Source of the DNA: Bradyrhizobium sp. CB1015
GTDB lineage: Bacteria > Pseudomonadota > Alphaproteobacteria > Rhizobiales > Xanthobacteraceae
Assembly: GCF_025200925.1 (NCBI RefSeq)
Contig: NZ_CP104174.1
Location: 1,178,001 to 1,242,000, forward strand
Length of the DNA stretch: 64,000 nucleotides
Direction: 5' to 3'
The notes beneath the pieces were generated by a model, which was not told the origin of the DNA, searched no databases, and saw nothing but the letters and a program-made list of their open reading frames with translations. The position numbers and the translations under genes were made by a program. This document shows positions 10,407 to 58,623 of this stretch, one piece after another. The stretch's first letter is position 1. Every line of letters starts with the position of its first letter.

Positions 10407-10740
10407 GGCACTCTCCAACGGTCCCAGCGACGGGAGCCGTATCAACATGACGTCTGATGAGAATGCCTCGGCCGCATCGCGCGATGGAGGCGCGCTGAAG
10501 CCGAAAAACTCAAACCAGACTGTGCTGCCGTGGATTGGTTGGGAGAGTTTCCCGCCCGCTCACCTGGCAATGAAGGACAAGCCTTTTCAGTAGCCCGCGC
10601 CGGCGTTGGACTGCCGGTAGAGACCAAAAAAGCCCGATCCGTCGTTGCTTTAAGTCGCGTCCCCCGTTGAGAGCGGGGTGCGCCGGTTCGCCTCCGGCTG
10701 CCAGTCACGGTTGCAAAGAGCGAAGTCACCTTCGACATGG
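10407..10740 (-). promoter_or_regulatory. Candidate speF-type leader RNA upstream of ornithine decarboxylase
   Basis: About 690 bp separate this gene from the next one, 10407-11094. The proximal 330 bp read on the minus strand contain several GC-rich inverted repeats and a possible short upstream frame beginning near 10738. Alphaproteobacterial ornithine decarboxylase genes are known to carry the conserved speF leader RNA (Rfam RF00518). This placement suggests a homologue, but I have not matched its consensus base by base. I see nothing recognisable in the distal part, 10741-11094, apart from short hairpins near 11005-11030. Confidence 0.45.
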
Positions 10741-43527: not shown

Positions 43528-43832
43528 AGGCGAAATCCTCGAAGCGAAGGTTGGATGGAGCTTGCCTCCTGCCTAGCTCAATTCGCCTGCCGCGTGCAGC
43601 GCTGACTTGATGTTGCTCCCTGGTATTTTGGATGCCGAAGCGCGCTGCCCCATTCCAGTCATCTGCTGGCCAAATATCGATCATTGAGTTGAAAACTTAG
43701 TTCCGAGGTTGCCTTGTTCGTATGCAAATGACTATCAACCCATTGAATTTCCTCATCAAACAAACTGAATCTGGGTTTCCATGGAAGCAACTGAGCCATG
43801 TGCGATTTGCATGGGAAATGGCGCAAAAGCCC
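43528..43832. other. Intergenic region between hisN and the sRNA
   Basis: About 300 bp with no supported gene. Possible short frames are not backed by ribosome sites. It should contain the hisN promoter, but no clear hexamers are marked. The region beyond is the sRNA promoter. Confidence 0.4.
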
Positions 43833-43861
43833 TTGCACTTTGTGCGGCGCGGTCGCATATT
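43833..43861 (+). promoter_or_regulatory. Sigma-70-type promoter of the sRNA
   Basis: The -35 box TTGCAC at 43833-43838 and the -10 box CATATT at 43856-43861 are separated by exactly 17 bp. Transcription should start near 43868. The following transcript ends at a terminator at 43924-43958, a compact sRNA unit. Confidence 0.75.
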
Positions 43862-43867
43862 GTTGCG

Positions 43868-43958
43868 GTGCGGTAGCGCTTCGCGTTACCGCTGCCCTCC
43901 TTGGGCGTTTCCTCCCTAGACTTGGGCCGCTTGCGTCATTCGCGAGCGGCCCTTTTTT
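43868..43958 (+). ncRNA. mmgR/suhB-family small RNA
   Basis: A predicted 91-nt transcript with a 5' hairpin at 43870-43892 (GCGGTAGCG...TTACCGC), an unpaired stretch carrying TTTCCTCCCT at 43908-43917, and a terminator. That decanucleotide in a loop is the hallmark of the rhizobial mmgR/alpha-r8 sRNAs, which regulate storage metabolism through anti-Shine-Dalgarno-like pairing. The related Rfam suhB motif is found near suhB-type genes, and a hisN/suhB-like gene is the neighbour. The promoter spacing supports it. Confidence 0.82.
43924..43958 (+). terminator. Terminator of the small RNA
   Basis: The stem GGGCCGCTTGCG...CGCGAGCGGCCC is followed by TTTTTT, a strong intrinsic terminator on the plus strand. 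It closes the sRNA about 90 nt after the promoter and lies before the convergent N-formylglutamate amidohydrolase gene. Confidence 0.85.
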
Positions 43959-44053
43959 CTTGCCGCCGCCGTTTTCATTTTGGGGCGCGCAAGCCTGCGA
44001 AGCGAAAACGCACTCGCGCGCAAGGCCTCGTCGTTTGAGAGAGAAGCTGCGTC

Positions 44054-44944
44054 CTATTCCGCCGCGGCTTGGAACGGGCCGAGGTCGGCGAACGGAATCG
44101 TGGTTGCCAGCACGTCGGCGAGAATGCCGAAGTCGGAGGCCACTTGCGCAAAGCGAGCACTGCGCTCGCGCCGCCGCTCGTCCATGTAGATCGCGCGATT
44201 GAGCTCGAGCTGCACCGCGTGCAGGCCGCTCGCGGGATTGCCGTAATGCTCGGTGATGAATCCGCCGGCATAGGGCTTGTTGCGGCCGATCGAATAGCCG
44301 AGCCCGCTCATGGTCTCCTCGACGCGATCCGGCAAGAGCGGCGTGCAGCTGGTGCCGTAGCGATCGCCGATCACGACGTCGGGCCGGCGCGGCTCGTCCC
44401 TGCTGACGCCGACCGAAGGCATCGAGTGGCAGTCGACCAGCACCACCGTGCCGAACATCTGGTGCACCTTGTTGATCAGCCGGCGCAGCGCGCGATGGTA
44501 GGGCTTGTACAGCGTCTCGATCCGCCCCAGCGCATCGTCGACCAGGATGCGGTCGCGGTAGATCTCCTGGCCGTCGCCGACCACGCGCGGGATGGTGCCG
44601 AGGCCGCCGGCGACGCGCATCGAGCGGGTGTTGGCGAAGCTCGGCAGCCGGCCGGTGAACATGCGCGGGTCGAGCTCATAGGGCTCGCGATTGACGTCGA
44701 CATAGGAGCGGGGAAAGTTGACCCGCACCGTCGGAAAGCCGCGCTCGCTCAGATGGCCGATCAGCTCGTCCATGAACGAGTCTTCCGACCGCCGCAGCGT
44801 GGGCAGGTCGATCCGCGACGCCGCCAGGAATTCCTCTGGATAGGTCGAGCCGGAATGCGGCGAGTTGAAGATGACGGGCGCGCGCCATTCGGCAGGCTCG
44901 AAGATCTCGAAGGCTGGCGACATGTCGCCGTCAAACCGGGTCAT
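44054..44944 (-). CDS. N-formylglutamate amidohydrolase family protein
   Basis: A 296-residue FGase/HutG-family hydrolase. The family motifs are FNSPHSGSTYPEEFL, YVDVNREPYELD and the metal-site region VLVDCHSMPSVG, then GGFITEHYGNPASGLHAVQLELNRAIYMDE. It cleaves N-formylglutamate to formate and glutamate in histidine degradation, or acts on related N-acyl compounds. ATG 44944 is preferred over an upstream start at 44998. cpdR lies upstream in the opposite direction, an arrangement often seen in alphaproteobacteria. Confidence 0.88.
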   Translation of the reverse strand: MTRFDGDMSPAFEIFEPAEWRAPVIFNSPHSGSTYPEEFLAASRIDLPTLRRSEDSFMDELIGHLSERGFPTVRVNFPRSYVDVNREPYELDPRMFTGRLPSFANTRSMRVAGGLGTIPRVVGDGQEIYRDRILVDDALGRIETLYKPYHRALRRLINKVHQMFGTVVLVDCHSMPSVGVSRDEPRRPDVVIGDRYGTSCTPLLPDRVEETMSGLGYSIGRNKPYAGGFITEHYGNPASGLHAVQLELNRAIYMDERRRERSARFAQVASDFGILADVLATTIPFADLGPFQAAAE

Positions 44945-45277
44945 CTTCTCAGGCTTCGTCCCTTCGTGCCGCACGATCCGGACAAGCTCCGGATCCAATG
45001 ATTCGGCCGATCAAGCGGCTCTTATGTGTCGTCATTGTCCGGAATCGCAACCATTCTGCCAAGCGAAAAGATGTCATGGTCTATTGGAACACGTCTTAAC
45101 CGTGCAGGCATGGGGATGGGGACCCGTCGGTCCGGCTCGATTGATTCGGACCTCGTTCCGGTCCACAAAGAGCCGGCAGCGGGGCCGGCGCAGGGTTAAG
45201 ATTTTCACCCCAAATTTACCCTCTGTCGGGCTTAGTGACCTCTGCTGATATCCTCTGGGGATTCGACGTTTCCTGCC

Positions 45278-45637
45278 ATGCCAAAGATCCTGCTCGCCGA
45301 AGACGACAACGACATGCGCCGTTTCCTGGTCAAGGCGCTGGAAAACGCCGGTTTTCAGGTCTCGTCCCACGACAACGGCATGGCCGCCTATCAGCGGCTG
45401 CGGGAAGAGCCGTTCGAGATGCTGCTGACCGACATCGTGATGCCGGAAATGGACGGCATCGAGCTCGCCCGCCGGGCCTCGGAACTCGATCCCGACATCA
45501 AGATCATGTTCATCACCGGCTTTGCCGCGGTCGCCCTGAACTCGGATTCGGACGCCCCCAAGAACGCCAAGGTGCTGTCCAAGCCCGTGCATCTGCGCGA
45601 ATTGGTCAGTGAAGTGAACAAGATGCTGGCGGCCTAA
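45278..45637 (+). CDS. cpdR: Response regulator CpdR
   Basis: A 119-residue stand-alone receiver domain. The acidic pocket is in LLAEDDNDMRRFL, the phospho-acceptor is D52 in LLTDIVMPEMDG, and the conserved lysine is in VLSKPVHLRELV. Length and sequence fit CpdR, which in its unphosphorylated form brings substrates such as CtrA-related proteins to the ClpXP protease and so times the cell cycle. It is phosphorylated through the CckA-ChpT relay. The 280 bp before it contain no other gene. Confidence 0.9.
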   Translation: MPKILLAEDDNDMRRFLVKALENAGFQVSSHDNGMAAYQRLREEPFEMLLTDIVMPEMDGIELARRASELDPDIKIMFITGFAAVALNSDSDAPKNAKVLSKPVHLRELVSEVNKMLAA

Positions 45638-45710
45638 ATCGGCCCCGTTCCGTCCTTGCGCGCGCTCCCCTGAGCCGTTATAGGGACCCCACCCGACGAA
45701 ATGACCTCTA

Positions 45711-45785
45711 GGGCACGTAGCTCAGCGGGAGAGCACTACCTTGACATGGTAGGGGTCACAGGTTCGATCCCTGTCGTGCCCACCA
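45711..45785 (+). tRNA. tRNA-Val (anticodon GAC)
   Basis: A 75-nt cloverleaf that includes an encoded CCA end. The acceptor stem pairs GGGCACG with CGTGCCC; the D arm contains AGCTCAGCGGGAGAGC; the anticodon arm is CTACC-TTGACAT-GGTAG with anticodon GAC; and the T arm GTCACAGGTTCGATCCCTGTC follows the TTCGA rule. It marks the border between ordinary chromosome and the accessory region downstream, a common integration point. Confidence 0.96.
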
Positions 45786-46975: not shown

Positions 46976-47232
46976 GGACACAACAACGGCGCAAGTTCTT
47001 TCCCTCACTACTCTCGTAACCTCGACGTCCGGCGGAGTAGACGTCGGTGGGATCTCCAACATGACAAAAGCGCACCCACTATTTTCCAATTGATTGCCGA
47101 AGCGATATTGAGCCAAGATTACAACCATTACGCTATTGCTGTGATTCCCCTCTGTTGCCCGGCGGGCCGTACTGGAGCCCAGAACCGCGTCAGATTGCCG
47201 TCACGTAAGCCCATTTGGAACAAGGTCACTGG
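46976..47232. other. Intergenic gap in the accessory region
   Basis: About 260 bp with lower GC than the chromosome part. I see no repeat, RNA or promoter I can support. A weak AAGG ribosome site precedes the next gene at 47233. Confidence 0.4.
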
Positions 47233-48528
47233 ATGCGTCGCGATTATCGCCTCTACGAACTAAGCGAGGGTGAGTTTGAAGAGCTCGTCGTCAAGATTTG
47301 CATCAACTGGCTGGGTGAAGGTGTCACGCCATTCGCGCCCGGTCGCGACGGCGGTCGTGATGGCAAGTTCAACGGCAAGGCCGAATGCTTTCCCAGCGCC
47401 AACATGCCCCTTGAGGGTCAGGTTGTCCTCCAGGCCAAGCACGTAGCCGTATTCGACAAATCATGCTCGGATAAGGATTTTGAGCGCCTCCTGAAAAAGG
47501 AGCACGCAAAAATTAAGCGGCTCGCAAAGAAGGGCCTATGTGACCACTACCTAGTGTTCACCAACCGCCGCTATACTGGAGGTGCCGACGAGAAGTTAAT
47601 CGCCAGCCTGATGGCACTCGGCGTCAAGCGTGCTCACATCATCGGGGTTGAGCGTCTCAACGCCGCACTGGATGATATGCAGCATATCCGGGAATGGCTT
47701 CCGAACCGGAAAGATCCCATCCCGTTCCGCTTCGAACCGGACGATCTCATCGAAGTGATTGGCGCGGTCCACGACTACGCAGATGGGTCAGCGCTGAGCG
47801 CGGTCAACAGCGCCAGAGACTTTGAAAAGCTCAAGCTGCGAGAGGAGAAGAACAAAATCAATGGATTGTCAGACGAGTACTACAACCAGATCATCGTCAG
47901 CAACTCTTTCCCTCACTTTGCGCGGATCGACCATTTCCTGAAGAATCCCCGCAATACTCAGGTTGCCGCCCTTTATCACGACAGCGCCGACGAACTAAAG
48001 CAAAAGATACTGGCCGCCCGTGCCGAGTTTGCAACGTTCGATAATGTTTTTGCCTTTTTGATCGAGGAGATCCAAAAGAGGCGCGCTGCACTGAAGGGCA
48101 GGAGGCGTATGATAAGCGTCATGCTCCACTATATGTACGCCAACTGCGACATCGGCTCGAAGAAACTTCCATCAACCACGCAAACCGGCAAGACCTCTAG
48201 CCAGGGAGAAGGGACGAGTTACAAAAAGCTGGTCTGTGCCCTGTTCGATCTAGCTCTGCTGAAGGTGTATGAGGACGTAGGCTTCTTCCATTTTGTCTAC
48301 CACGACGGAATCTTCGAAGCTCTGGACGACCGAAAGAAGCTGGCGCTGTTAGAGGTTGTGCGTGAACAGACGAGTACCAAGAAGATGCAATACATAATGA
48401 CGCTAATTGCTTCAGACCTGCCGCGTATCGAAGAGAAGTCACCCCCCACGTTTGCGCCGGACGAAATTATACTTCGCCTTCACGACGACGGAGCCGACGG
48501 TCGCCTCTTCAAGATGGCAGAATTCTAA
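47233..48528 (+). CDS. ABC-3C-like effector fused to a DUF2326 C-terminal segment (probable deletion chimera)
   Basis: A 431-residue protein in three parts. Residues 1-150 are a PD-(D/E)xK-like nuclease module (FEELVVKI, PGRDGGRDGK, then VVLQAKH with K69). Residues about 200-310 match the C-terminal module of ABC-three-component (ABC-3C) proteins (EEKNKINGLSDEYYNQI...LKNPRNTQVAALYH...LHYMYANCDIG). Residues 315-431 match the C-terminal end of DUF2326 ATPases (GTSYKKLVCALFDLALLKVY, FVYHDGIFEALDD, LRLHDDGADGRLFKM). The middle component and the ATPase N-terminal lobe with Walker A are missing, so a deletion probably fused the two ends of an operon. Confidence 0.7.
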   Translation: MRRDYRLYELSEGEFEELVVKICINWLGEGVTPFAPGRDGGRDGKFNGKAECFPSANMPLEGQVVLQAKHVAVFDKSCSDKDFERLLKKEHAKIKRLAKKGLCDHYLVFTNRRYTGGADEKLIASLMALGVKRAHIIGVERLNAALDDMQHIREWLPNRKDPIPFRFEPDDLIEVIGAVHDYADGSALSAVNSARDFEKLKLREEKNKINGLSDEYYNQIIVSNSFPHFARIDHFLKNPRNTQVAALYHDSADELKQKILAARAEFATFDNVFAFLIEEIQKRRAALKGRRRMISVMLHYMYANCDIGSKKLPSTTQTGKTSSQGEGTSYKKLVCALFDLALLKVYEDVGFFHFVYHDGIFEALDDRKKLALLEVVREQTSTKKMQYIMTLIASDLPRIEEKSPPTFAPDEIILRLHDDGADGRLFKMAEF

Positions 48529-48545: not shown

Positions 48546-49958
48546 CTACTCCGCCGCCTCGCCCTTCACCTCAATCATCAGCACATCAAGACTCTCGATC
48601 TCCTGCATCGCGCGGCCGGCGATTCCCTGGAGGTCGCCATAGAGACCGGCCGTGGAGTCGAGCACCCCACGGAGCTGTTCCTCGCGCTTGGCCCAGAGCC
48701 GCATCATCGTCTTGCGCTCGCGGTCGAGGTCGGCCTGCATGTCGGTGAACTTCTCGACGATCGCATCGATCCGGTGACGGAAGCGCGGACCGGTCAGATA
48801 GCCGTACATCATCTCCATCTTGGTCTGCTGGCCTTCCTGGGACTGACGGCTGCCGGCGAGGTCGATCAGCCCGTGCCGGAGTACGATCGCCAGCGGAACG
48901 GCGAACCGGGGCTCTGCGACCCAGACATTGTCGAGCAGACCGAAGGTTTCGATATCGTTCGGCAACGCGCTGGAGACAATAAGGGCGACCTCCGCTTTAG
49001 CAGCGCGCTGGTCGCTTCTGAGCTTGGTCAGCCAGTCGTCGCTCCAACGTTTGGTTCGCTTGGATTCCCACAGGATCGTGCCGCAAGTCTGCCCACCGGG
49101 ACCGAACACGCGATGGAGGACGTCGCCACCAAAATCGCCCTTCGGCACCGGCTCGATGAGATCGCGCGGAAACTGATTGCGGAGCAGGGATTCCAGTTCG
49201 AGCTCCAGGGCTTCGCCTTGCAACTGCTGTGAGCCCTGTTCAGCACGGCGGCGGAGTTCTTCGATCTGCCGGTTCATGCCGGCGATCTGGGCTTCCTTCT
49301 CCGCGACTTTCGCCTTGAAGCCGTCCTCGGCCTCCAGCTTGGCCTTGTCGCGCACAGCGGCGAGTGCCTGCTGGACCTTCGTCTCGATCGTGAGCTCGAC
49401 TTCGCGCCTGGCATCGTCGAGCTCGCGCTCCTTGCGGAGCATGTCCGCCTGGATCTTCTGGGCTGCGGCCAACTTCTCGTTGTTCGCTGCGAGTATTTGC
49501 TGCAAATCCGCCAATTGCCGGTCGCGTTCGCCGAGTTCATCGGCGATCGCCAGCCGTGCTCGCTTTGCTTCCATTTCGACGATATTGGACCGCTCCGCCT
49601 TCAGCTTTGCGGCGACCTGTTCGTCGACGGCCTCGCGAGCTTTCGCGATTTCTTCGCTGGCCTGCTTGAGCAGCGCTTCGCGCCGGCCAAAGTCCGCTTC
49701 CTTGGCGGCAAGCTGCTGGTCGAACTTGCGGCGCGTCTCCGCAATCAGGGGCGCCGCGAGCGATTCTGTCAGCTTGATTTCAGTGCGGCAGCTCGGGCAG
49801 ACGATCTGGGGATCGGTCACGGTATTGGTCCTCGGATGATTGTCCGCGATAGTACCGGGCGAGGGTGCGCCGTTTAAGCCCTGCGCGCGGGTTATCCCGC
49901 GCAATTGCGGCGGCCGCGGCAGCGGCGGCCGTGTCTTTCCGTTGTTCTGTTCCACCAT
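48546..49958 (-). CDS. DUF2130 coiled-coil protein with PD-(D/E)xK-like core
   Basis: A 470-residue protein. An N-terminal CPSCR motif (CxxC) near residue 54 precedes a long Ala/Glu/Arg coiled coil (residues about 75-250). The core GDFGGDVLHRVFGPGGQTCGTILWESKRTKRW (from about residue 287), with D and the ESK lysine, resembles a restriction-endonuclease fold, as proposed for DUF2130. Family members usually start near TDPQIVCPSC, corresponding to GTG 49820; the ATG at 49958 adds 46 residues and lies two bases after the AAA gene's stop. Last gene of the four-gene operon. Confidence 0.8.
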   Translation of the reverse strand: MVEQNNGKTRPPLPRPPQLRGITRAQGLNGAPSPGTIADNHPRTNTVTDPQIVCPSCRTEIKLTESLAAPLIAETRRKFDQQLAAKEADFGRREALLKQASEEIAKAREAVDEQVAAKLKAERSNIVEMEAKRARLAIADELGERDRQLADLQQILAANNEKLAAAQKIQADMLRKERELDDARREVELTIETKVQQALAAVRDKAKLEAEDGFKAKVAEKEAQIAGMNRQIEELRRRAEQGSQQLQGEALELELESLLRNQFPRDLIEPVPKGDFGGDVLHRVFGPGGQTCGTILWESKRTKRWSDDWLTKLRSDQRAAKAEVALIVSSALPNDIETFGLLDNVWVAEPRFAVPLAIVLRHGLIDLAGSRQSQEGQQTKMEMMYGYLTGPRFRHRIDAIVEKFTDMQADLDRERKTMMRLWAKREEQLRGVLDSTAGLYGDLQGIAGRAMQEIESLDVLMIEVKGEAAE

Positions 49959-49960
49959 GA

Positions 49961-51538
49961 TCAGTTCCTCAATGCTCGGACGTCGCGTTCGCGCAGGATG
50001 GCCTCGACGATGCGGCGCAGGCGCCGCACCGAGCCGCCGGCCCAGTGCTTCGCGACAGCTTCGCGCTCAACGCCGTCGAGCGGTGTCATCCAGCTCTGGT
50101 CGAGGCCGCGCTCCTTGGCGAGGTCAACGATCACGGCCGGCAGCAGCGCGTCCAAGTCATTCGCGGTCGGCTTGGGAAAGGTCACGATGCGGAAGCGGTC
50201 TCTGATTGGACTTGGCAACGGCTCGAGGCGGTTGGCAGTGGCGATGTACGACACCTGCGACAGATCAAGATTGGTCTGGAGCGCGGGGTCGGGGTAGCGG
50301 ACGCTCGTTTCCGGTTCGAGAAAGCCGAGCAGGCAGTCCCATAGCCGGCCGTAGTCGGACCTCGTCGCCGCTTTCTCCAATTCATCGAGGAGGACCAGCA
50401 CATTTGCCGTTTTGCCTTGCGCGATGGCGAGAAAAGGATGGCAAGGCTCGCTAGAGTACCAGCGCCGGTCGGTCCCCCCGAACACCGCGCCGTCGGAACG
50501 ACTGGCTTCGGTCCGCCAAACGTGGAGACCCAGCACCTCACCGAGCCGGCGGGCAAATCGGCTCTTACCGCCGCCGGGCTCGCCAACAATCAGAAGCGGG
50601 CGCAAACGGACCGTGGTGCGCCCAACAAGATCCGCCAGCGCGAAATCGATGACGTCGATGGCGTACGGGAACTCGAACTGCAGAACGCTGCGCGCCTCGT
50701 GGAGCGGCGGCACCTCAACGAGCGGCAAAGCAGTGTTAATGACGTTCTTCAGCGGGCCAAGGATTTCCTTGAGTTTGATGTTCTTCAACTCGGCCTCGGA
50801 CAGACGCGCAACGACGAGATGACGGTCGGGAATGAGTTCAGGGTCCGGGACGGCTTCTTGCTTGACGGTTTCGGTCCGGTCCTCGGCTTCCCGCTTTTTC
50901 CGGCTGTCCTCCTCCTCCTTGAGTTGGAGCCGTAACGTGGCCTTGGCCGCGGTGATGCGGTGCTCGGCCAAGCGGTGCCCGACCAGGGAGGCGTTAATCG
51001 CAGCAGAGAACTTCTTCGGCAGAAAATGCGTGCAGGCCGGCAGCGCAGCCCAGCCATAGGTAAACCGTTCGAGATCGCAGCGAACCTTCTGTTCGACGTG
51101 CAGCGAATTCACCTGAAAGGCCTTGACCAGCGCCTTGGCGACCCTGCGGTGCTGCTGGAAGTGTTCGTCATCACGCGGCGTTGGCAAGCTCACGAGCCGG
51201 ACGCTATCAGCAAGGCTCCTGAGAGCTGGCTCACTATGGGCTGCAGCGCGGCGATCGAGTTCAGTCGCCAGTGCCATTGCGGCCTCCAACGACCTGCTGG
51301 TGGCCCAAGCGACATTGTGTGGCAGTCCCGGGCAAAGCTCGTTGACTTCCGCGATAAGCCGTTCCTCAATGTGTTCGGCGCCATTGACGGCGAGCAGGGC
51401 ATAGCGCAGAAGCCGCGGCAGGCCTTTGAGCCGCTCGTCCCAATCGGCCGAATCGGCGGCGGCGCCGGTCGTGACCGCGTCCTCCGCGGTTGGCAGATCC
51501 TGGTGATCGGCGCCGTCATCACCGCCATCGGTACTCAA
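49961..51538 (-). CDS. Lon-like AAA+ ATPase without protease domain
   Basis: A 525-residue protein beginning at a TTG that overlaps the stop of the previous gene (TTGA). The N-terminal about 310 residues have no clear fold. The AAA+ core follows: Walker A GEPGGGKS (319-326), Walker B LVLLDELE (D385, E386), sensor 1 asparagine in YIATANRLEP (N436), arginine finger in IRDRFR, and sensor 2 helix GGSVRRLRR (501-509). It resembles Lon/MoxR-like ATPases but has no protease domain. It is probably the motor of the operon with nuclease-like partners. The function is inference. Confidence 0.82.
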   Translation of the reverse strand: MSTDGGDDGADHQDLPTAEDAVTTGAAADSADWDERLKGLPRLLRYALLAVNGAEHIEERLIAEVNELCPGLPHNVAWATSRSLEAAMALATELDRRAAAHSEPALRSLADSVRLVSLPTPRDDEHFQQHRRVAKALVKAFQVNSLHVEQKVRCDLERFTYGWAALPACTHFLPKKFSAAINASLVGHRLAEHRITAAKATLRLQLKEEEDSRKKREAEDRTETVKQEAVPDPELIPDRHLVVARLSEAELKNIKLKEILGPLKNVINTALPLVEVPPLHEARSVLQFEFPYAIDVIDFALADLVGRTTVRLRPLLIVGEPGGGKSRFARRLGEVLGLHVWRTEASRSDGAVFGGTDRRWYSSEPCHPFLAIAQGKTANVLVLLDELEKAATRSDYGRLWDCLLGFLEPETSVRYPDPALQTNLDLSQVSYIATANRLEPLPSPIRDRFRIVTFPKPTANDLDALLPAVIVDLAKERGLDQSWMTPLDGVEREAVAKHWAGGSVRRLRRIVEAILRERDVRALRN

Positions 51539-52035
51539 GCGTCGCCCTCCTCATCGGAGAGAGCTTGCTTGACGGCCACTTCTGTCTGAGCAAACCAGCG
51601 CGGATCCCTCGTACGACCGAGATGGTGGGTGAGCCAAAGGGTCGAGAGCTCGATCTTCAGGGGGTGATCGAATTCGGCATTGCTAAGGATGTGCGACAAG
51701 ACGAGGGCCGCCGTGGCGTCATCCTTGAGCGCGCAATGCAGAAGAGCCGACATGACGATATCGACTTGAAGATCGACGTCTCCTAGCGGCGTCAGCGACA
51801 GTGCCGCGGCGACGGCGGCAGCCGGATCGCCCTTGAGGGCGGCCGGGACGTTGTCGGTGACGCGGAGGACGGCTAGGCTTTCGAGAGTGGCGCCGAGATC
51901 AAGGCGTTCGGCCGCGCTGAACGCGTCGGGCGGCAGCATGCGCCACCACGCAAGCGGGTTTGAGTCATCCGAGGCGTATGGCCAGGGATTGCTGCGGCCG
52001 GCGATGGTGGAGTTTAGTTCGCGGACTTGACGCAT
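51535..52035 (-). CDS. Unknown small helical protein in the AAA operon
   Basis: A 166-residue protein starting at ATG 52035, 23 bases after the upstream stop, with GGAG upstream. A GTG overlapping that stop (GTGA at about 52060) is a possible longer start. The protein is mostly helical with several Leu/Ala-rich blocks (LESLAVLRVTDNVPAALKGDPAAAVAAALSL). It has no catalytic motif I recognise. Its stop overlaps the AAA gene start, so the two products are probably made in equal amounts and may form a complex. Confidence 0.65.
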   Translation of the reverse strand: MRQVRELNSTIAGRSNPWPYASDDSNPLAWWRMLPPDAFSAAERLDLGATLESLAVLRVTDNVPAALKGDPAAAVAAALSLTPLGDVDLQVDIVMSALLHCALKDDATAALVLSHILSNAEFDHPLKIELSTLWLTHHLGRTRDPRWFAQTEVAVKQALSDEEGDA

Positions 52036-52058
52036 GTGTGCAGCTTCTCCTATTGCCC

Positions 52059-52919
52059 TCACCGCGCGTTGGATGACACCGCGGGCGCTATCCACTGTCC
52101 GGGCCCGAGCGGGCGCGCCTGAAGAACGCTGGTCAGCCAATCGTGCTGTTCGATGGGAGTCTCAGGTTCGGGTGCCGGCTTAACTACCTTGGGCTTCCGC
52201 GCTGCGTTCAGCTTGCTAATGGCGGGCTCGAGGATTGCGCCGAGGCGCGTGTGCATCTCCTGCCGCAGCGCGGCGGTCATGGTCTCGATGCGCTCGACCA
52301 CCGCGACGCCGAAGTGCGCGTTCAATTCATCGCGCACGAGCTTGATGTCACGCGAGAACCCCGAACCGCCGTAGTAGTCGATGACCGCGGTCGTCACTCG
52401 ATCGACGTCATGTCCGAGCTTCTTGAGATGCGAGGCCAGCACGAGGCGGGTCGCGCGCAGATCCCTCTCGATCGGTTTGCGCTTGTTCCAAGCCGTTTCG
52501 CCATTGCCCCTTTTCACGTCGTAAGCGCCGGCCCAGCCGCGTTCGGAATCGATGACAATCAGGTCGAGCTTCGCCATCCTGATGACAGGCGAGTCCGACT
52601 TCAGTTGGATCTTCGCCAGGGCTGCGTTGGAGTTCTGGGAGGTCAGAAGATCGTTGGCCGCCACGGTGATCGGCACATGGATTTCGCTCAGAACTTCGAA
52701 ACGACCGCTGGTGGCGAGCGTGTCTGCGAGCGTCGTCTGGATCAGAAGACCGTGGCGGCGCACGCAAGAAGAAATGACGGCGAACGATTGGGAGAGTTCG
52801 TCGCCGATAATCGGGTCGATCGAGAAGTTGGCTTCAAGGGCCGTTGCGACGACCTGCTTGGCCGCGCGGACGGCGTCCTCATTGGTTTTCAGCAATTCGG
52901 TGAGTGGATCGATAGGCAC
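52059..52919 (-). CDS. PD-(D/E)xK-like protein, first gene of the AAA operon
   Basis: A 286-residue protein. The pattern E79 (VLSEIHVPIT), D119 (AKLDLIVID) and D134-V-K136 (GAYDVKRGNG) matches the spacing and hydrophobic strands of a PD-(D/E)xK nuclease core. A helical tail rich in charged residues follows and ends with a Pro-rich segment. GTG 52919 is chosen because AGAGGAG lies six bases upstream; TTG 52985 is a weaker start. The next gene begins near its stop. It is divergent from an XRE regulator. A nuclease role is inferred from pattern only. Confidence 0.6.
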   Translation of the reverse strand: MPIDPLTELLKTNEDAVRAAKQVVATALEANFSIDPIIGDELSQSFAVISSCVRRHGLLIQTTLADTLATSGRFEVLSEIHVPITVAANDLLTSQNSNAALAKIQLKSDSPVIRMAKLDLIVIDSERGWAGAYDVKRGNGETAWNKRKPIERDLRATRLVLASHLKKLGHDVDRVTTAVIDYYGGSGFSRDIKLVRDELNAHFGVAVVERIETMTAALRQEMHTRLGAILEPAISKLNAARKPKVVKPAPEPETPIEQHDWLTSVLQARPLGPGQWIAPAVSSNAR

Positions 52920-52967
52920 GTTGTTCTCCTCTGTATCGGGAGAACTTTTCTCATGGCCGGGACCAAA

Positions 52968-52984
52968 TGTCAGTTGATCTGACA
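52968..52984. promoter_or_regulatory. Inverted-repeat operator between the AAA operon and the XRE regulator
   Basis: TGTCAG-TTGAT-CTGACA is a perfect 6-bp inverted repeat with a 5-bp centre. It lies in the 92-bp space between the divergent starts (GTG 52919 and ATG 53012), where a small XRE repressor encoded next door could bind to control both units. If the TTG start at 52985 is used for the first operon gene, this site would be inside its coding start. Confidence 0.6.
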
Positions 52985-53011
52985 AATTAACCTTAATAGA
53001 ATCTTTCCGAC

Positions 53012-53245
53012 ATGATTTCCGTAGAACAGATTCGCGCAGCGCGTAGCTGGTTAGGGATTTCGCAGCAGGAGCTTGCGGACGCTGCCGGCGTAGAGGTGAA
53101 GACTATTCACCGGATCGAGACAGGCTTTCGCGGAGCCACGGAACGAACCCTGGAAAGAATCCGACGGGCTTTCGAAGCGAGGGGCCTCGAGTTCATTTTC
53201 GACGGAAGCAAGCCGGTCGGTTTGCGAACCCGAAGCGCGCGCTAA
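53012..53245 (+). CDS. XRE family HTH regulator
   Basis: A 77-residue protein that is almost entirely a helix-turn-helix of the Cro/C1 type: QIRAARSWLGISQQELADAAGVEVKTIHRIETG, then ATERTLERIRRAFEARGLEFI. No other domain is present. It is probably a repressor of the divergent four-gene operon and of itself, with a 17-bp inverted repeat nearby. Confidence 0.88.
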   Translation: MISVEQIRAARSWLGISQQELADAAGVEVKTIHRIETGFRGATERTLERIRRAFEARGLEFIFDGSKPVGLRTRSAR

Positions 53246-53543
53246 CGTAAGACTATCATCGCCGAGACTTCGCGGCCGCTTTTGGCGCGAGGCGGCCATC
53301 GCGCCAACGGAAGCGGGTTTCGACAGTTTCGCGAGCTTTACCTTGACTTCGATCCGCGTGTGTCGACACGACCGAATTCGTGCTCGACGAATATGCCTGT
53401 GGCTGCAATGAGCCATCCGGCGCTGCACGATGCAGATTGCAGTAGGCGGGCAGTAAGCCCTCATCCGAAACGCGTTGGGCAGCGTGGTCGTGGCTGGTTG
53501 CCAAGATGTCGTCGGGGCGGATCGCTCTTCCGTTCTGCGCCTG

Positions 53544-54150
53544 TCCGATTTTGTCCGCAATGCGAACCAGATCCGCGATGGACTGTGCCCCCATTTTGGT
53601 CATGATCCGGCCACTGTGAACACGGGCAGTATGCGTACAGATCCCTAGCCGGCCAGCTATGTGCTTGGGTCCAAGTCCTGCCGAGAGCAGCGCCATGGTC
53701 TCTCTTTCGCGGGGCGATAGCGACGCAAAGCCTCGCACGCAGTTCGTCCTGGATCTGCTCTTGCCGGTGCCGCGTGAGATCGCGTTCGATGCCGCGTCTG
53801 ACCGCGTCGACAAGCTGTTCAATCTGGAACGGCTTGATGAGATAGTCGATGGCGCCATTCTTCATCGCCTAGACGCAGGTCCTTGCCTCGTCCTGAGCCG
53901 TCAGAAACAACAATGGTGTCTTGCGTCCAATCCTTGTCTGGTGGGATTGAAGATCGAGACCGCCGATGCCAGGCAACCGCACATCCAATATGATGCAGTG
54001 AAGTGGATTGGTCTCGCTTCTCATCAAGAAATCCTCGGCTGAATTGAATACCTCGACCGTCAGGCCAGCCGCGACGAGGCAATCCAGCGCCTTCGCTCGC
54101 GAGGAGCTGTCGCTGTCGATAACTGCTACTAGCGGTCGGTCAATGATCAT
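53544..54150 (-). pseudogene. Broken FixJ/NarL-type response regulator
   Basis: The reading order is intact but spread over three frames. A receiver domain (VAVIDSDSSSRAKALDCL, IILDVRLPGIGGLDLQ) ends at LLFLTAQDEA near 53870. Its last part, IDYLIKPFQIEQLVDAVRRGIERD, continues in another frame. The LuxR-type HTH (LSPREREMALL-like SPRERETMALLSAGLGPKHIAGRLGICTHTARVHSGRIMTKMG) lies in a third. At least two indels have therefore broken it. FixJ-like regulators are common in rhizobia. Confidence 0.85.
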
Positions 54151-54265
54151 CGGCTATATCGTCGGCACTCTTGATGGAGGACGGCATCGTTCCGCATCTC
54201 GGTGTACTTTCATCACGATAAGGTCGGGTATCGAGCTACGGAGCGGCTGCGCGAGATCGTTTCGA

Positions 54266-54820
54266 TTACCATTTGCCGACATGTGCGCCGCCGTCGACGC
54301 GCAGGATCTCTCGCGTGATGCGGCGAGCCTCGATCACAATCTCCTGAATGCTCGAAATGCTTCCCATCGGGGACGGTCTGCGAAGAAAGTCCCAATCGGG
54401 TTTGCCCGCGAGGGCTGCAGTGATGCTGACAATGCTGCCGCCTGACGTTTGTGCCATGATCTGTATCTGTCTGATCGCGACTTGGGTCATGTAGATGAAG
54501 CCGTTGAGATTGGTGGAGAGCAGCTGCTTCAAATCATCACCCGGGTAGTCGGTGAACGGGTTGACCACGAAGATCTCAGCATTGTTCACCAACGCATCTA
54601 TCGAGCTGAACTTGCCAACAGCTGTCTCGGCAACCCTGGTGGCTGTCGAGGCATGCCGACGTCCCCATCCACCAGGGCCAAGCTCGGAGAGAAGGGATCG
54701 CGTCACTCTCCGCGAGGTCGCGACGACGTTGTAACCTCGTTCAATGAATGTCCGTACCGCACTTAAGCCGATCCCCTGCAAGCCGCCGGTGACAATCACG
54801 GTCTTTGATCCTTGAGTCAC
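54266..54820 (-). pseudogene. SDR-family oxidoreductase remnant lacking its catalytic segment
   Basis: A single open frame of 184 residues. The N-terminal cofactor site is TVIVTGGLQGIGLSA, and LVNNAEIFVVNPF corresponds to the NNAG motif. The catalytic YxxxK region and the following helix are missing: the sequence jumps from SIVSITAALAGKPDWD to SPMGSISSIQEIVIEA, and ends normally (TREILRVDGGAHVGKW). About 60-70 residues are lost compared with a normal SDR. It is probably inactive. Confidence 0.78.
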
Positions 54821-55533
54821 GCTAGGTCTCCTTGCTCTAGCCGGGCAGTGGCGATGATTAGTTTCTTATCGCCGTGGAACTCGATCGCTGAATGTGCTGT
54901 GCCGCTTGGGGGCAGCTCGCTTGAAACGCGACCTCACAGCTTGCCAATTCGGAAGTCGGGTTCGCGAAGTTACATGCGCGCGAAGACGTGACTTCGCTTT
55001 GCTCTCGTTGGCCCAACGCACGCCGGGATAATGAGCGAGCAGAGTAGCTGGATGTACCCCACGAACGAGAACGCATTCGGTTCGGCCACTACGCCGGTTG
55101 AGGTAGAAGCCGCACACCTGCACGTCGTCAAGCGGCAATGACGGAAGAGGCGCGAGCTAAGGCAGCGCTGCTTGAGATCGCCGAAGAGTATCGCGCGCGG
55201 GCCGAACACCAAGAGCGGGAGCTCCCTGAGAGGAGCAAAAGCTAGTGAACGTCGCCTTATGGCCCATCTGCGAAGTTGCACCGCATCTGACGGAGGTCCC
55301 CTCATCACGCCACAGCGGACCAGATTTGCTCAACCGCAGTTCTTCGCATTTTGACCCAACCCGGACATCAGGGGCTGCGCAGCCTCTACCGAGGGGGCCC
55401 ACGATCAACGAAATATGCCCCCGGATACGCCTTTGGACTCATCTCGGGCTGACGGTTATTTCACCGGCTCACCCATTCAAAATTCCGAGTTGCGGGCGCA
55501 TATTGTAGCGATAGGGCGCCGCGAGGTGACTTA
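54821..55533. other. Decayed region with small gene remnants
   Basis: About 700 bp without an intact gene except a short helical remnant at 55138-55245. Base 55341 starts a 17-bp word, TCTTCGCATTTTGACCC, repeated at 55697. Frames here are short and overlap in all directions. I see no RNA gene. Confidence 0.5.
55138..55245 (+). pseudogene. Short helical protein remnant
   Basis: A 35-codon frame (MTEEARAKAALLEIAEEYRA...ERSKS) ending in TAG. The Ala/Glu/Arg-rich helix looks like the C-terminal end of common small rhizobial proteins whose N-terminal half is absent. Without the rest I cannot assign a family. It is probably a fragment rather than a gene. Confidence 0.45.
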
Positions 55534-55710
55534 ATGAAACGCCGCGATTTTGTCGCTCTTCTCAGCGCTGCGGTAGTCGCCTTGCCCCTCGCAGCCCACG
55601 CGCAGCAACCAGCGGTGCCGCGGGTCGGCTACGTCTGGAGCGGCGCTCGCGGGACGGACGTGTACTACCAGACCGGATTCCGTCAAGGACTAGAGGTCTT
55701 CGCATTTTGA
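55534..55710 (+). pseudogene. N-terminal fragment of an ABC substrate-binding protein
   Basis: The 58-codon frame starts MKRRDFVALLSAAVVALPLAAHA, a twin-arginine-like or Sec signal seen in rhizobial ABC_sub_bind (TRAP-like) lipoproteins, then AQQPAVPRVGYVWSGARG as in that family. It runs into the repeated word TCTTCGCATTTTGACCC and stops. The remaining about 270 residues are missing. Confidence 0.7.
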
Positions 55711-55776
55711 CCCGTTGCGGACTTTTGGATATCGGTACTAGAGAACCCTATCATCGTGGATTCCGGGGAGCAGAGC

Positions 55777-56223
55777 TTGAAGAACATTCAGATCATCGAT
55801 CCCGCCGTCAACGCGACGTTCAGCTTGTTTCAAGCGACTGATGATGAGTTTGCTGCCATCTTTCCTGGGGCGGGCCAAGACTTAGAGTTGATCGAGGACT
55901 TTACCGAACGCGTAGGGGAAGAGCAGGCTTTGCGAATATTGTCGCCCGTATGGGAGCGCCCTATCTTGAAGCGCGATGCGCAAGGTATCCACGGGACGCT
56001 GTACTACGAGTACGCGGACCGGAAGCAATATCTTCCGGCATCCAGGAGAGAGGTCGACTGGCCCGATTCCTACGTTAATCTCGCGCAGCGCAAGCCGTCC
56101 GAGCGAATGAGCCGCGCGAACTGCCATCGGCGGGCGCCACGATACACAACAGAACCGACAGTCCCTTTGTGCCGGTCTCTCACTGAGCGCTGCCAGCTCA
56201 GGCACGCGAAACGATCACGTTGA
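55777..56223 (+). CDS. Small conserved-looking protein of unknown function
   Basis: A 148-residue protein beginning at TTG 55777 (LKNIQIIDPAVNATFSLFQATDDEFAAIF) with GGGGAGCAGAGC upstream. Residues 1-95 are well ordered and look like a real domain with many acidic residues; after about residue 103 (RKPSERMSRANCHRRAP) the composition becomes basic and may be out of frame. No function recognised. Confidence 0.55.
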   Translation: MKNIQIIDPAVNATFSLFQATDDEFAAIFPGAGQDLELIEDFTERVGEEQALRILSPVWERPILKRDAQGIHGTLYYEYADRKQYLPASRREVDWPDSYVNLAQRKPSERMSRANCHRRAPRYTTEPTVPLCRSLTERCQLRHAKRSR

Positions 56224-56241
56224 TCGCAACGAGGCAGCACG

Positions 56242-56931
56242 ATGAAATCAAGACTTGGAAGGTTCATTACGCCATTTATCGCCACGCTCGCTCTTCGCGC
56301 GATAGTCATTGTCGCCACGGTTTGTACTGTACTGACGTGGGCCACGATCCACAGCGTTCGCGCCGAAGAAAGGGTGATCAAGATCACGGTGCTCGGGGAT
56401 TCTCTCATCGAAAATAAAGGTGTTCCCGTTGCCCATCGTTTCCCGGACAAACTTGAATTTGCACTGAAAGCCAGAGGTCAATCAGTCGCCGTAACCAATG
56501 CCGGCTGGGCTGGTGACACAGCCGCAAAAGGTCTCGCCAGATTGGACCGAGTGATCACCGACCAACCCGATGCGGTCATTGTGGTGCTCGGTGCGAATGA
56601 CATGGTCTGGGGAATCGATCCAAATGCTACTCGTGCCGCGCTGGCGGAAATTTTACGTAAACTCGAAGCGCGGCGGATTGCCGTGCTTCTTTGCGGCGTG
56701 CGGACGCAATCAAAATTTGGAGAAGAATACAAGAATGCTTTTGCGGCGATGTTTTCTGGTCTTGCCAGCGAGCACAACGTGCTGTTCTACCCAGCTTTCG
56801 ATGATGCGTTTGTCGATGATGCCCAACTCAAAGCGCTCGATGGTCTACACCCGACCCCGGCCGGAATCGAGGCGGTCGTAACGCGCATCCTACCACAAGT
56901 CGAGGCCCTGATCGCGAGCGCGCGCCGCTAG
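56242..56931 (+). CDS. SGNH/GDSL hydrolase (TesA-like arylesterase)
   Basis: A 229-residue esterase with an N-terminal hydrophobic export segment (FIATLALRAIVIVATVCTVLTW). The SGNH blocks are: block I serine in ITVLGDSLIENKG, block II glycine in NAGWAGDTAAKG, block III asparagine in VVLGANDMVWG, and block V aspartate and histidine in ALDGLHPTPAG. It likely hydrolyses thioesters, aryl esters or lysophospholipids in the periplasm. An intact gene among decayed ones. Confidence 0.9.
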   Translation: MKSRLGRFITPFIATLALRAIVIVATVCTVLTWATIHSVRAEERVIKITVLGDSLIENKGVPVAHRFPDKLEFALKARGQSVAVTNAGWAGDTAAKGLARLDRVITDQPDAVIVVLGANDMVWGIDPNATRAALAEILRKLEARRIAVLLCGVRTQSKFGEEYKNAFAAMFSGLASEHNVLFYPAFDDAFVDDAQLKALDGLHPTPAGIEAVVTRILPQVEALIASARR

Positions 56932-57098
56932 GGACCGTTGAGACTCACGATTGGCATGAAGAAGGCTGCTACGTCGTTAGCGCGGGCAATTCCGACAATG
57001 GCCCTCAGCCGAATTGCCTATGAACGGCCGCAAAGGCCCCTTTCGAAGGAAAGCCGGACCTGACGAGCTGAGTGGTCGAAACCGCCGCTTGTGACCCT

Positions 57099-58623
57099 GG
57101 CTGTGTGAAAAGTCTCGGCCTGCTATAGTTCTCCTGCTGAATCGGTGGGGGACATGATGCCGGGCTTTGTTGCGGGGATGGACCGGGGGCAAGCGACGCT
57201 GTTGCCGGAATGCCTCGACGACTGGGTCGACGACAGCCATCCTGTTCGCGTGATCGATGCGTTCGTCGAGATGCTGGATCTGCGCGCTCTTGGCTTCACC
57301 AGCGTCAATCCGGCCGACACCGGTCGTCCGGCTTATCACCCCTCGATCCATCTGAAGCTCTACATCTACGGCTATCTCAACCGCGTGCATTCGAGCCGGC
57401 GGCTCGAGCGCGAGGCGGGCCGCAACGTGGAGGTCATGTGGCTCTTGGGCCGGCTGGCGCCGGACTTCAAGACGATCGCCGATTTCAAGGACAATGGGCC
57501 GGCGATCAAAAAAGTCTGCGCGCGCTTCGTCGAGGTGTGCCGCGAGATGGGATTGCTCGCGAAGGCCAGCGTCGCGATCGATGGCAGCAAGTTCAAGGCA
57601 GTGAATAACCGCGACAAGAACTTCACGCAGGCGAAAGTCGAGCGCCGGCGGAAGCAGTTGGAGGAGAGCGTGGCACGCTATCTGGCACGACTCGACTCCG
57701 CAGACCGGCAGGATCCGTCGGAAGTCGTCACGCTGAAGAAGATGCGTTACAAAGAGAAACTCGAGAAGTTGAAATCCGAAATGGCGAAGCTGGCGGCTAT
57801 CGAGAAGCAGGTTCTGGCCGCGCCCGATAAGCAGGTTTCGTTCACCGATCCCGACAGCCGCTCGATGGCGACCAGCGGGGCGCGGCTCCGGCGTCGTCGG
57901 CTACAATGTGCAGACGGCGGTCGACACTGAGAACCATCTGATCGTCGCGCACGAGGTTACGAATGTGGGCTCGGATCGCTCGCAACTTGCGAATACGGCG
58001 CAGGCGGCCAAAGAAGCGTTGAAGGTCGAGAAACTTGAGGCCGTCGCCGATCGCGGTTACTTCAACGGCGAGGAGATCAAGGCGTGCGAGGACGCCGGCG
58101 TCACCGTGACGTTGCCGAAGCCGATGACATCTGGTGCCAAAGCGGAAGGCCGTTTCGGCAAGCAGGGTTTTGTTTATCTGGCTGAGGAGGATGTTTATCG
58201 CTGCCCGGCCGGGGAGCAACTCACCTATCGAATGACGACCGTGGAAAACGGCCAGAACATGCGCCGGTATTGGACAAATGCGTGCCGCGCCTGTCCGCTC
58301 AAGGCGAAATGCACGAAAGGCTCGGAGCGGCGGATCACCCGCTGGGAGCACGAGCAGGTGGTCGAGGCTGTGCAGGAGCGGCTCGACAAGAACCCCGAGG
58401 CGATGCGCACGCGGCGCGAGACGGTCGAGCATCCGTTTGGCACACTGAAGATGCGCATGGGCGCGACGCACTTCTTGTGCAAGACGCTGCCCAAGGTTGC
58501 GACCGAGATGGCGCTCTGCGTGCTCGGCTACAACATGACGCGCGTGCTGAATATCGTCGGCGTCAAGCCGCTGCTGGCGGCGATCGCGGCCTGAGACGGC
58601 CCCACTGCAGGCTCTGCACAGCC
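57099..58623 (+). mobile_element. IS1182-family insertion sequence
   Basis: Short inverted ends GGCTGTG (57099-57105) and CACAGCC (58617-58623) bracket a transposase of the IS1182/IS5-like DDE type. I cannot see a clear target duplication. The transposase is frameshifted by one base, so this copy is probably immobile without help. Confidence 0.75.
57154..58594 (+). pseudogene. IS1182-type transposase broken by one extra base
   Basis: The N-terminal part, ATG 57154, reads MPGFVAGMDRGQATLLPECLDDW and continues with the usual HPSIHLKLYIYGYLNR block and the KVERRRKQLEESVARYL coiled region. After SMATSG near 57876 it shifts frame and resumes as VVGYNVQTAVDTENHLIVAHEV...DRGYFNGEEIKACEDAG, ending in EHPFGTLKMRMGATHFLCKTL and MALCVLGYNMTRVLNIVG. 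Removing one G from the GGGGCGC run restores one frame of about 480 residues, so a point insertion disabled it. Confidence 0.85.

Follow-up and report, generated by a model that had tools for sequence, protein, structure and literature searches.

An XRE-associated gene cassette with exchangeable nuclease and AAA+ motor slots at the edge of a Bradyrhizobium symbiosis island: a probable conflict system

Among the described systems closest to the locus considered here, BREX places a Lon-like AAA+ protein (BrxL) in a multi-gene defence operon, and ietAS combines IetA with a subtilase, IetS. The locus itself lies in a stretch of 64,000 nucleotides (the window; C1:1178001-1242000) from the genome of Bradyrhizobium sp. 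CB1015, a single contig of 8.41 Mb, and comprises four genes on the minus strand, termed here A, B, C and D, together with a divergent gene for a small regulator of the XRE type. This arrangement, recognised in a first-pass annotation made from the sequence alone and proposed there as a candidate undescribed defence or DNA-processing system, is borne out, all five open reading frames (ORFs) being intact and open at their listed positions. On comparing the locus with its relatives, we consider it probable that these genes form a modular and mobile XRE-associated conflict cassette, directed against phages or other genetic elements, in which the small protein B links an exchangeable nuclease with an exchangeable motor.

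Relatives of the cassette were collected from the motor (40 loci), from A (8) and from B (15 places), together with six plasmid matches, one class-level match and one contig of a viral collection; in their neighbourhoods, which extended over 3-18 kb and were cut at contig ends, genes were called with a codon-usage script, and six-frame scans with profiles built from gene clusters covered 71, later 73, loci. The usual order comprises the XRE gene, slot 1, B and the AAA+ motor, with genes for a phosphoesterase and a DUF6634 protein as optional members, in that order, between B and the motor, and an optional last slot behind it. Slot 1 is occupied by a PD-(D/E)xK protein (A), by a GIY-YIG-type protein, which remains below the Pfam cut-off (GIY-YIG, 0.0076) and matches the PADLOC model PDC-S14 at 3e-26, or by a protein of the phage family phrog_4652 (3e-41), 190 amino acids long with a glycine-rich C-terminal stretch (L041:11645-12217). 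Such cassettes are spread among the Hyphomicrobiales and occur once in another alphaproteobacterial order. The fullest forms are L037 (XRE/A-B-phosphoesterase-DUF6634-C-DUF2130), in which the phosphoesterase and DUF6634 genes are inserted within the A-B-C-D set, and L144, from the other order (c37-B-phosphoesterase-DUF6634-FtsH-DUF2130), where the XRE gene lies upstream on the same strand and is not divergent. Among 27 loci with a full-length C, B accompanies the motor in 19, a phosphoesterase in 12, DUF6634 in 11 and DUF2130 in nine, and seven have an ECF sigma factor gene and no B. The expectation that the four genes would stay together elsewhere holds in so far as they keep company in other genomes, but the exact set is one of several forms. 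It is complete in only three of the 27 loci, namely L005, which is the clone of the window locus, L038 and L037, and thus A-B-C-D does not stand as a fixed unit: the nuclease, the motor and the last gene can each be replaced by another type.

The exchanges can be followed between close relatives. On the tree of C the motor copy of the window, L005, with a PD-(D/E)xK protein in slot 1, is sister to L006 with a GIY-YIG-type protein (support 100/95). L038 (PD-(D/E)xK) pairs in the same way with L039 (GIY-YIG; support 100/98); the distribution of the PD-(D/E)xK label on this tree needs three changes. The motor is also exchanged, an FtsH-like protein occupying the slot of the Lon-like one within an otherwise similar order in L144 (compare L040 and L041). 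Furthermore, in four loci (L125, L129, L130 and L131) B forms the end of a single frame which begins with a long region. With a single profile these regions resemble the GIY family weakly (0.0023 for L131, 0.14 for L125, none for L129 and L130), and Pfam finds nothing in that of L130; the four are homologous to each other (27-72% identity), and their alignment, compared profile to profile with the stand-alone GIY-type family, gives a match with a probability of 94.9% (E 4.5e-8, 224 columns), against 0.1-0.2% for the control families (A, phosphoesterase, DUF2130 and motor). By these alignments, the region fused to B is of the GIY-YIG type. Independent swaps and a fusion to B are what an adaptor function of B would predict, and the more specific proposal that the cassettes constitute an undescribed defence family, in which an orphan adaptor B is retained as scaffold and docks different nucleases (PD-(D/E)xK, GIY-YIG or the phage-family protein) onto different AAA+ machines (Lon-like without protease or FtsH-like with peptidase), effector and motor being swapped independently, is to our mind tenable, although we would put it somewhat short of an even chance. 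The parts can also stand without the rest, as seen in L088, which has no motor, and in L100 and L145, where A and an exonuclease occur alone.

The hallmark of the cassette is B (51535..52035, minus strand; listed ORF to 52140), the conserved part of which sets in near 52035. It belongs to an orphan family with an all-helical predicted structure and, as the model would allow, is perhaps an adaptor of the Sel1/TPR kind; neither B nor A found a match in Pfam, PADLOC or NCBIfam, and for both PHROGs returned only weak matches at chance level. Searching 397 genomes of the order with a profile of B yielded 21 places in 16 genomes, five of which were rows of the query alignment (the window, L037, L039, L041 and L088), one of which (L056) was known from the motor search, and 15 of which were new. 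An FtsH-like AAA+ motor lies within 1.6 kb of every one of the 15 new places, on the same strand in all except L132; over the 21 places a motor is found within 1.6 kb at 20, at 19 of them on the same strand, L088 being the place without a motor. Beyond the order, among 385 genomes at class level, B occurs in one genome besides that of the window. Across all 73 loci B was counted 46 times, in 44 loci, and in 43 cases a motor lies on the same strand no more than 3 kb away, a count biased by the many loci that came from the motor search. B may also be doubled: one database protein reads as two B-like halves (P0123, P0148), and the plasmid pS11L-1 carries two consecutive B genes (L098:5931-6873).

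Gene C (49961..51538, minus strand), which occupies the motor slot, had been described as a Lon-like AAA+ protein devoid of the protease, and this description is correct. Its product matches the ATPase half of Lon only, as judged by TIGR00763 (positions 355-563 of 795, 1.4e-18, far below the family cut-off), by the chains of Lon structures (E 1e-18) and by Pfam AAA (9e-9), with Pfam AAA_5 just under the cut-off; the C-terminal serine protease domain is absent, the match stopping at position 563 of the model, four residues short of the end of the ORF. The alternative motor is an FtsH-like AAA+ protein with Peptidase_M41, the AAA domain of which matches IetA models (best 2e-16). Motors were found at 44 places in 32 of 296 genomes of the family; the neighbourhoods of 40 were fetched, two others being the window and its copy, while G159 and G204 were left out, and six of 19 plasmid records with matches were opened. 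Against 50,697 phage records the motor gave a single weak match (27.7% identity over 39% of the query), and a pattern search of viral contigs returned no confirmed relative.

The peptidase of the FtsH-like motors, the small XRE regulator and the carriage on plasmids and islands might together suggest a proteolysis-gated module akin to toxin-antitoxin pairs, in which the AAA+ protein would control a nuclease toxin via B and so stabilise the element instead of defending it against outsiders. We regard this as quite unlikely, since the motor of the window has no protease and the operons may reach six or seven genes, two of nuclease type and one for a phosphoesterase among them, unlike the two-gene modules known.

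Several other motor relatives occur. The genome of the window contains a second motor copy (L055, C1:6404602-6405612), truncated, with an internal stop and 69% identical, beside which nothing was detected by the profiles except a fragment that matches the DnaQ family. A separate set (L043, L044, L048-L050, L052 and L053) combines an ECF sigma factor, a ParA/MinD-like protein (a weak match), DUF6634 and a Lon-like motor, and on the motor tree its members group together as a single clade (100/100). More distant relatives (L065-L074) lie in what appears to be other mobile DNA; the majority have a DUF6634-like gene close by, and several adjoin the families c8 and c12, of which c12 reads like a ribbon-helix-helix protein.

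Slot 1 of the window is occupied by A (52059..52919, minus strand; listed ORF to 52985). The earlier guess of a PD-(D/E)xK nuclease is upheld by residue conservation and by a structure model: D141 and K158 are invariant in 43 sequences, position 156 is D or E in the rows displayed, the catalytic residues sit at the predicted strands 134-146 and 151-157, and the modelled fold is that of restriction endonuclease-like proteins, with McrC among the structural matches. A profile of A run against PDB sequences found no restriction-type nuclease, only a few weak rows, one of them a Cas9 chain. We conclude that A, by its predicted fold and conserved catalytic residues, is a putative nuclease of the PD-(D/E)xK fold. 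Its start is probably the GTG at 52919, preceded by GAGGAGA, in place of 52985, and among the rows displayed nearly all relatives start within a few residues of it. When A of the window alone was searched against the 296 family genomes, 12 places in 11 genomes were found, and B adjoins A at 11 of the 12, a figure that includes the window and its copy (G242:C18); the sole place without B (L095) is only 28% identical and carries a stop. Two further relatives, on a plasmid (L100) and on the viral-collection contig (L145), consist of A and a DnaQ-type exonuclease; neither B nor a motor was found with them, and they lie about 0.9 kb ahead of Tn7-like tnsA/tnsB genes, the TnsA match of L145 being under the Pfam cut-off. 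A phage origin of the cassette was considered and rejected, the motor having one weak match in the phage records searched and A one viral-collection relative, beside Tn7-like genes.

The last slot of the window is taken by D (48546..49820, minus strand; listed ORF to 49958), a DUF2130 protein (Pfam E 8.7e-78). The ESK motif noted in the first-pass annotation is confirmed as D233...E252-S-K254, with D233 in nine and ESK in all ten sequences of an alignment, and by this pattern D may be of the PD-(D/E)xK type as well. PADLOC gives a weak match to LmuB (3e-5) across the coiled-coil part. Elsewhere the last slot contains a DnaQ-type exonuclease, a PolB-exo2 exonuclease (L124, L126 and L128) or an ExoI-like protein (L091). 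For D also the start is probably internal, at GTG 49820 in place of 49958, where the conserved sequence of its relatives begins and in agreement with the annotated starts of DUF2130 genes on three plasmids. This correction widens the gap between C and D from 2 to about 140 nucleotides; B and C overlap by 4 nucleotides (51535-51538).

For A, C and D, dN/dS (NG86) is 0.12-0.26 in nine comparisons with the window, values that are rough because dS exceeds 1 in eight of them; the three genes are under purifying selection. Taken with the recurrence of gene order in other genomes, these values place the set of the window beyond chance. Unrelated genes gathered fortuitously in an accessory region, forming no functional unit, would account for the variable composition and for the rarity of the exact set among the C loci, but not for a gene order that returns in different genera and in a second taxonomic order, for a nuclease-type protein fused to B or for the selection on the genes; the searches with A and B rejected such a chance collection, and we give it hardly any credence. 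A locus in Bradyrhizobium sp. RP6 has an identical motor, and the adjoining genes are likewise 100% identical.

The regulator (53012..53245, plus strand, divergent from A) is an XRE/HTH_3 protein of 77 amino acids (Pfam HTH_31 1.5e-9, HTH_3 4e-9). A profile built from the proteins of the window and L094 matches at nine of 13 A-bearing loci, always divergent and adjoining A. The inverted repeat reported between A and XRE corresponds, in the intergenic region 52920..53011, to two perfect palindromes, both short and picked out by eye (52923-52929/52939-52945 and 52968-52973/52979-52984), which are weak and, on a rough estimate, not clearly above chance; a repeat search with arms of at least 8 nucleotides returned another pair (13 nucleotides, 77%).

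The genes surrounding the cassettes also bear on their function. For 25 cassettes, hand-picked to avoid near copies, the closest genes outside the cassette but within 5 kb were sampled, at most four per cassette and each of 100-1200 amino acids (93 genes). The controls were 93 of 98 genes from 19 of 20 stretches of 10 kb, placed arbitrarily in many of the genomes that also supplied cassettes (L165 was left out); the control positions were round numbers, and some lay on contigs of 160-570 kb, possibly mobile themselves. At E<=1e-15 the flanking genes matched 128 PADLOC models and the controls 5, a difference to be read with the redundancy of the models, the inclusion of two cassette exonucleases (L091 and L126) among the flanking genes and a control unmatched for mobile DNA. 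Single scans of ten flanking proteins gave matches for eight (those of L039 and L093 did not match), comprising GajA and GajB of Gabija (L041), TIR-APAZ and short pAgo (L037), SIR2-APAZ (L098), in L089 a UvrD-type helicase together with a type III methylase, and an ExoI-like protein (L091), and CBASS is annotated beside L100. Known defence systems thus adjoin at least five of the 25 cassettes.

The cassette of the window had been placed in an accessory region near a tRNA and can now be assigned to the edge of a tRNA-Val island. Of the two sides, 43800-45785, through the end of tRNA-Val(GAC) (45711..45785, plus strand), is conserved in all 18 other genomes of the genus searched, whereas 53869-58500 is conserved in these genomes in pieces only and not as a block. 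The 3' end of the tRNA is repeated some 584 kb downstream, near C1:1808033, where 61 of 65 bp agree, including all of the last 51, with genes reading as recombinases and an excisionase just inside it (L140); within 45.6-62 kb of the window no tRNA repeat of 18 or more nucleotides was found. With nifH at C1:1318531 inside, the tRNA forms the left end of a symbiosis island of about 584 kb, which carries the cassette 2.8-7.5 kb inside its tRNA end and fits the tRNA-Val symbiosis integrative and conjugative elements described in PMC9174649. For the bipartite form of such elements, which has recombinases, conjugation genes and a second element at ybgC, the observation is that of the recombinase- and excisionase-like genes of L140, named by inspection. 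Relatives are also carried by plasmids, more than one of them conjugative. L096, on a conjugative plasmid, has virB genes nearby, L097 adjoins a DNA adenine methylase, L098 is close to SIR2- and PIN-annotated genes, and in L100 A plus exonuclease lies between CBASS and Tn7-like genes. Polymerase Y and error-prone polymerase genes adjoin the motor relative L099.

Such surroundings raise the alternative of a maintenance or repair module of mobile elements, whose AAA+ motor, nucleases, exonuclease and phosphoesterase would process intermediates of recombination or transfer of islands and plasmids and which would have no role in defence. The position near the end of an island, the virB genes beside a plasmid copy, A and an exonuclease ahead of tnsA/tnsB, the replication-type exonucleases and the polymerases next to L099 would all be in keeping with it. 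Nevertheless we judge it unlikely, albeit the most serious of the alternatives. The patchy spread (the motor in 32 of the 296 family genomes and B in 16 of the 397 of the order), the exchange of nuclease type between close relatives and the defence genes alongside fit conflict better, and to our knowledge repair genes seldom swap their catalytic fold.

Returning to the conflict cassette, we infer a defensive role triggered by phages or elements and directed at DNA, in which the proteins could act in the following order. XRE would keep the operon low until needed; B would hold the slot-1 nuclease (here A) and dock it on the AAA+ motor (here C), and the motor would spend ATP to remodel, load, move or activate the nuclease on invading DNA. 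The protein of the last slot (here D, elsewhere a 3'-5' exonuclease) might then trim the products and the phosphoesterase clean the ends or remove a signal, while the peptidase of the FtsH-like forms may, in addition, clear away an inhibitor. The outcome would be restriction of phages or of competing mobile elements, and that the cassette works in the manner of motor-plus-nuclease restriction is a well-founded guess. If so, rhizobia would contribute a defence cassette in which the slots for nuclease and motor are separable, and nature would thereby offer a test of how different nucleases are driven by AAA+ machines; since one copy resides inside a nifH-bearing island, the phages and elements that symbiotic strains admit may be influenced by it. 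Three uncharacterised families, DUF2130, DUF6634 and B, would also gain a context.

Other features of the window lie nearby. Next to XRE, 53256-54150 holds overlapping frames with a LuxR-type domain (GerE 1e-14) and, by reading, a receiver-like piece, and looks like a broken FixJ-type regulator. On the other side of the cassette, 47215-48528 encodes a protein of 437 amino acids that has ABC-3C CTD12 (2e-30) and part of DUF2326 (1.5e-24). Its N-terminus matches PADLOC PDC-S73 (3e-13), and it appears to be an ABC-3C effector, either fused or left as a remnant. Rfam matches to the speF leader and to suhB/mmgR RNA occur at 10459-10619 and 43887-43966.

How, then, does the cassette compare with named systems? 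The earlier statement that no named system has this set stands for A, B and C, none of which matches PADLOC (2023 library), and must be qualified for D by its weak LmuB match; the whole set matched none of the named PADLOC systems. Combined-term searches of a limited paper collection gave nothing on this gene set by title or start of abstract, and in such searches DUF2130 returned only papers unrelated by title and DUF6634 none. The ABC-3C relic suspected beside the cassette is supported by CTD12 and DUF2326, but these occur only in the neighbour at 47215-48528 and in none of the cassette genes; ABC-3C systems join a CTD protein to an ABC ATPase and a middle component, and by this test the cassette itself is not ABC-3C. 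Lon and FtsH proteases share their ATPase domains with the two motor types, but C is without the protease half and both motors adjoin B. The FtsH-like motor resembles IetA over the AAA region only, and no subtilase was seen with the cassette. PDC-S14, by its label a one-gene candidate, is matched by the GIY-YIG-type protein of the sister cassettes, which is here one exchangeable slot, filled in the window by PD-(D/E)xK instead; according to PMC10855318, PDC-S14 overlaps GAO_29. As for BREX, it too has a Lon-like AAA+ protein, but PglZ, PglX and BrxC have no match among the cassette proteins scanned, and by this test the cassette is not BREX. For McrBC, the type IV restriction system with its pair of McrB-type motor and McrC, a row for McrC stands among the structural matches of A and AAA_5 lies just under the cut-off for C, but none of the four proteins fell into a McrB- or McrC-named family of Pfam, NCBIfam or PADLOC. 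Among named families the motor comes closest to Lon or, elsewhere, to AAA with M41, and the cassette has the separate gene B, exchangeable nuclease and motor and additional exonuclease and phosphoesterase genes. Within the searches made, the combination and B appear undescribed; the parts belong to known kinds.

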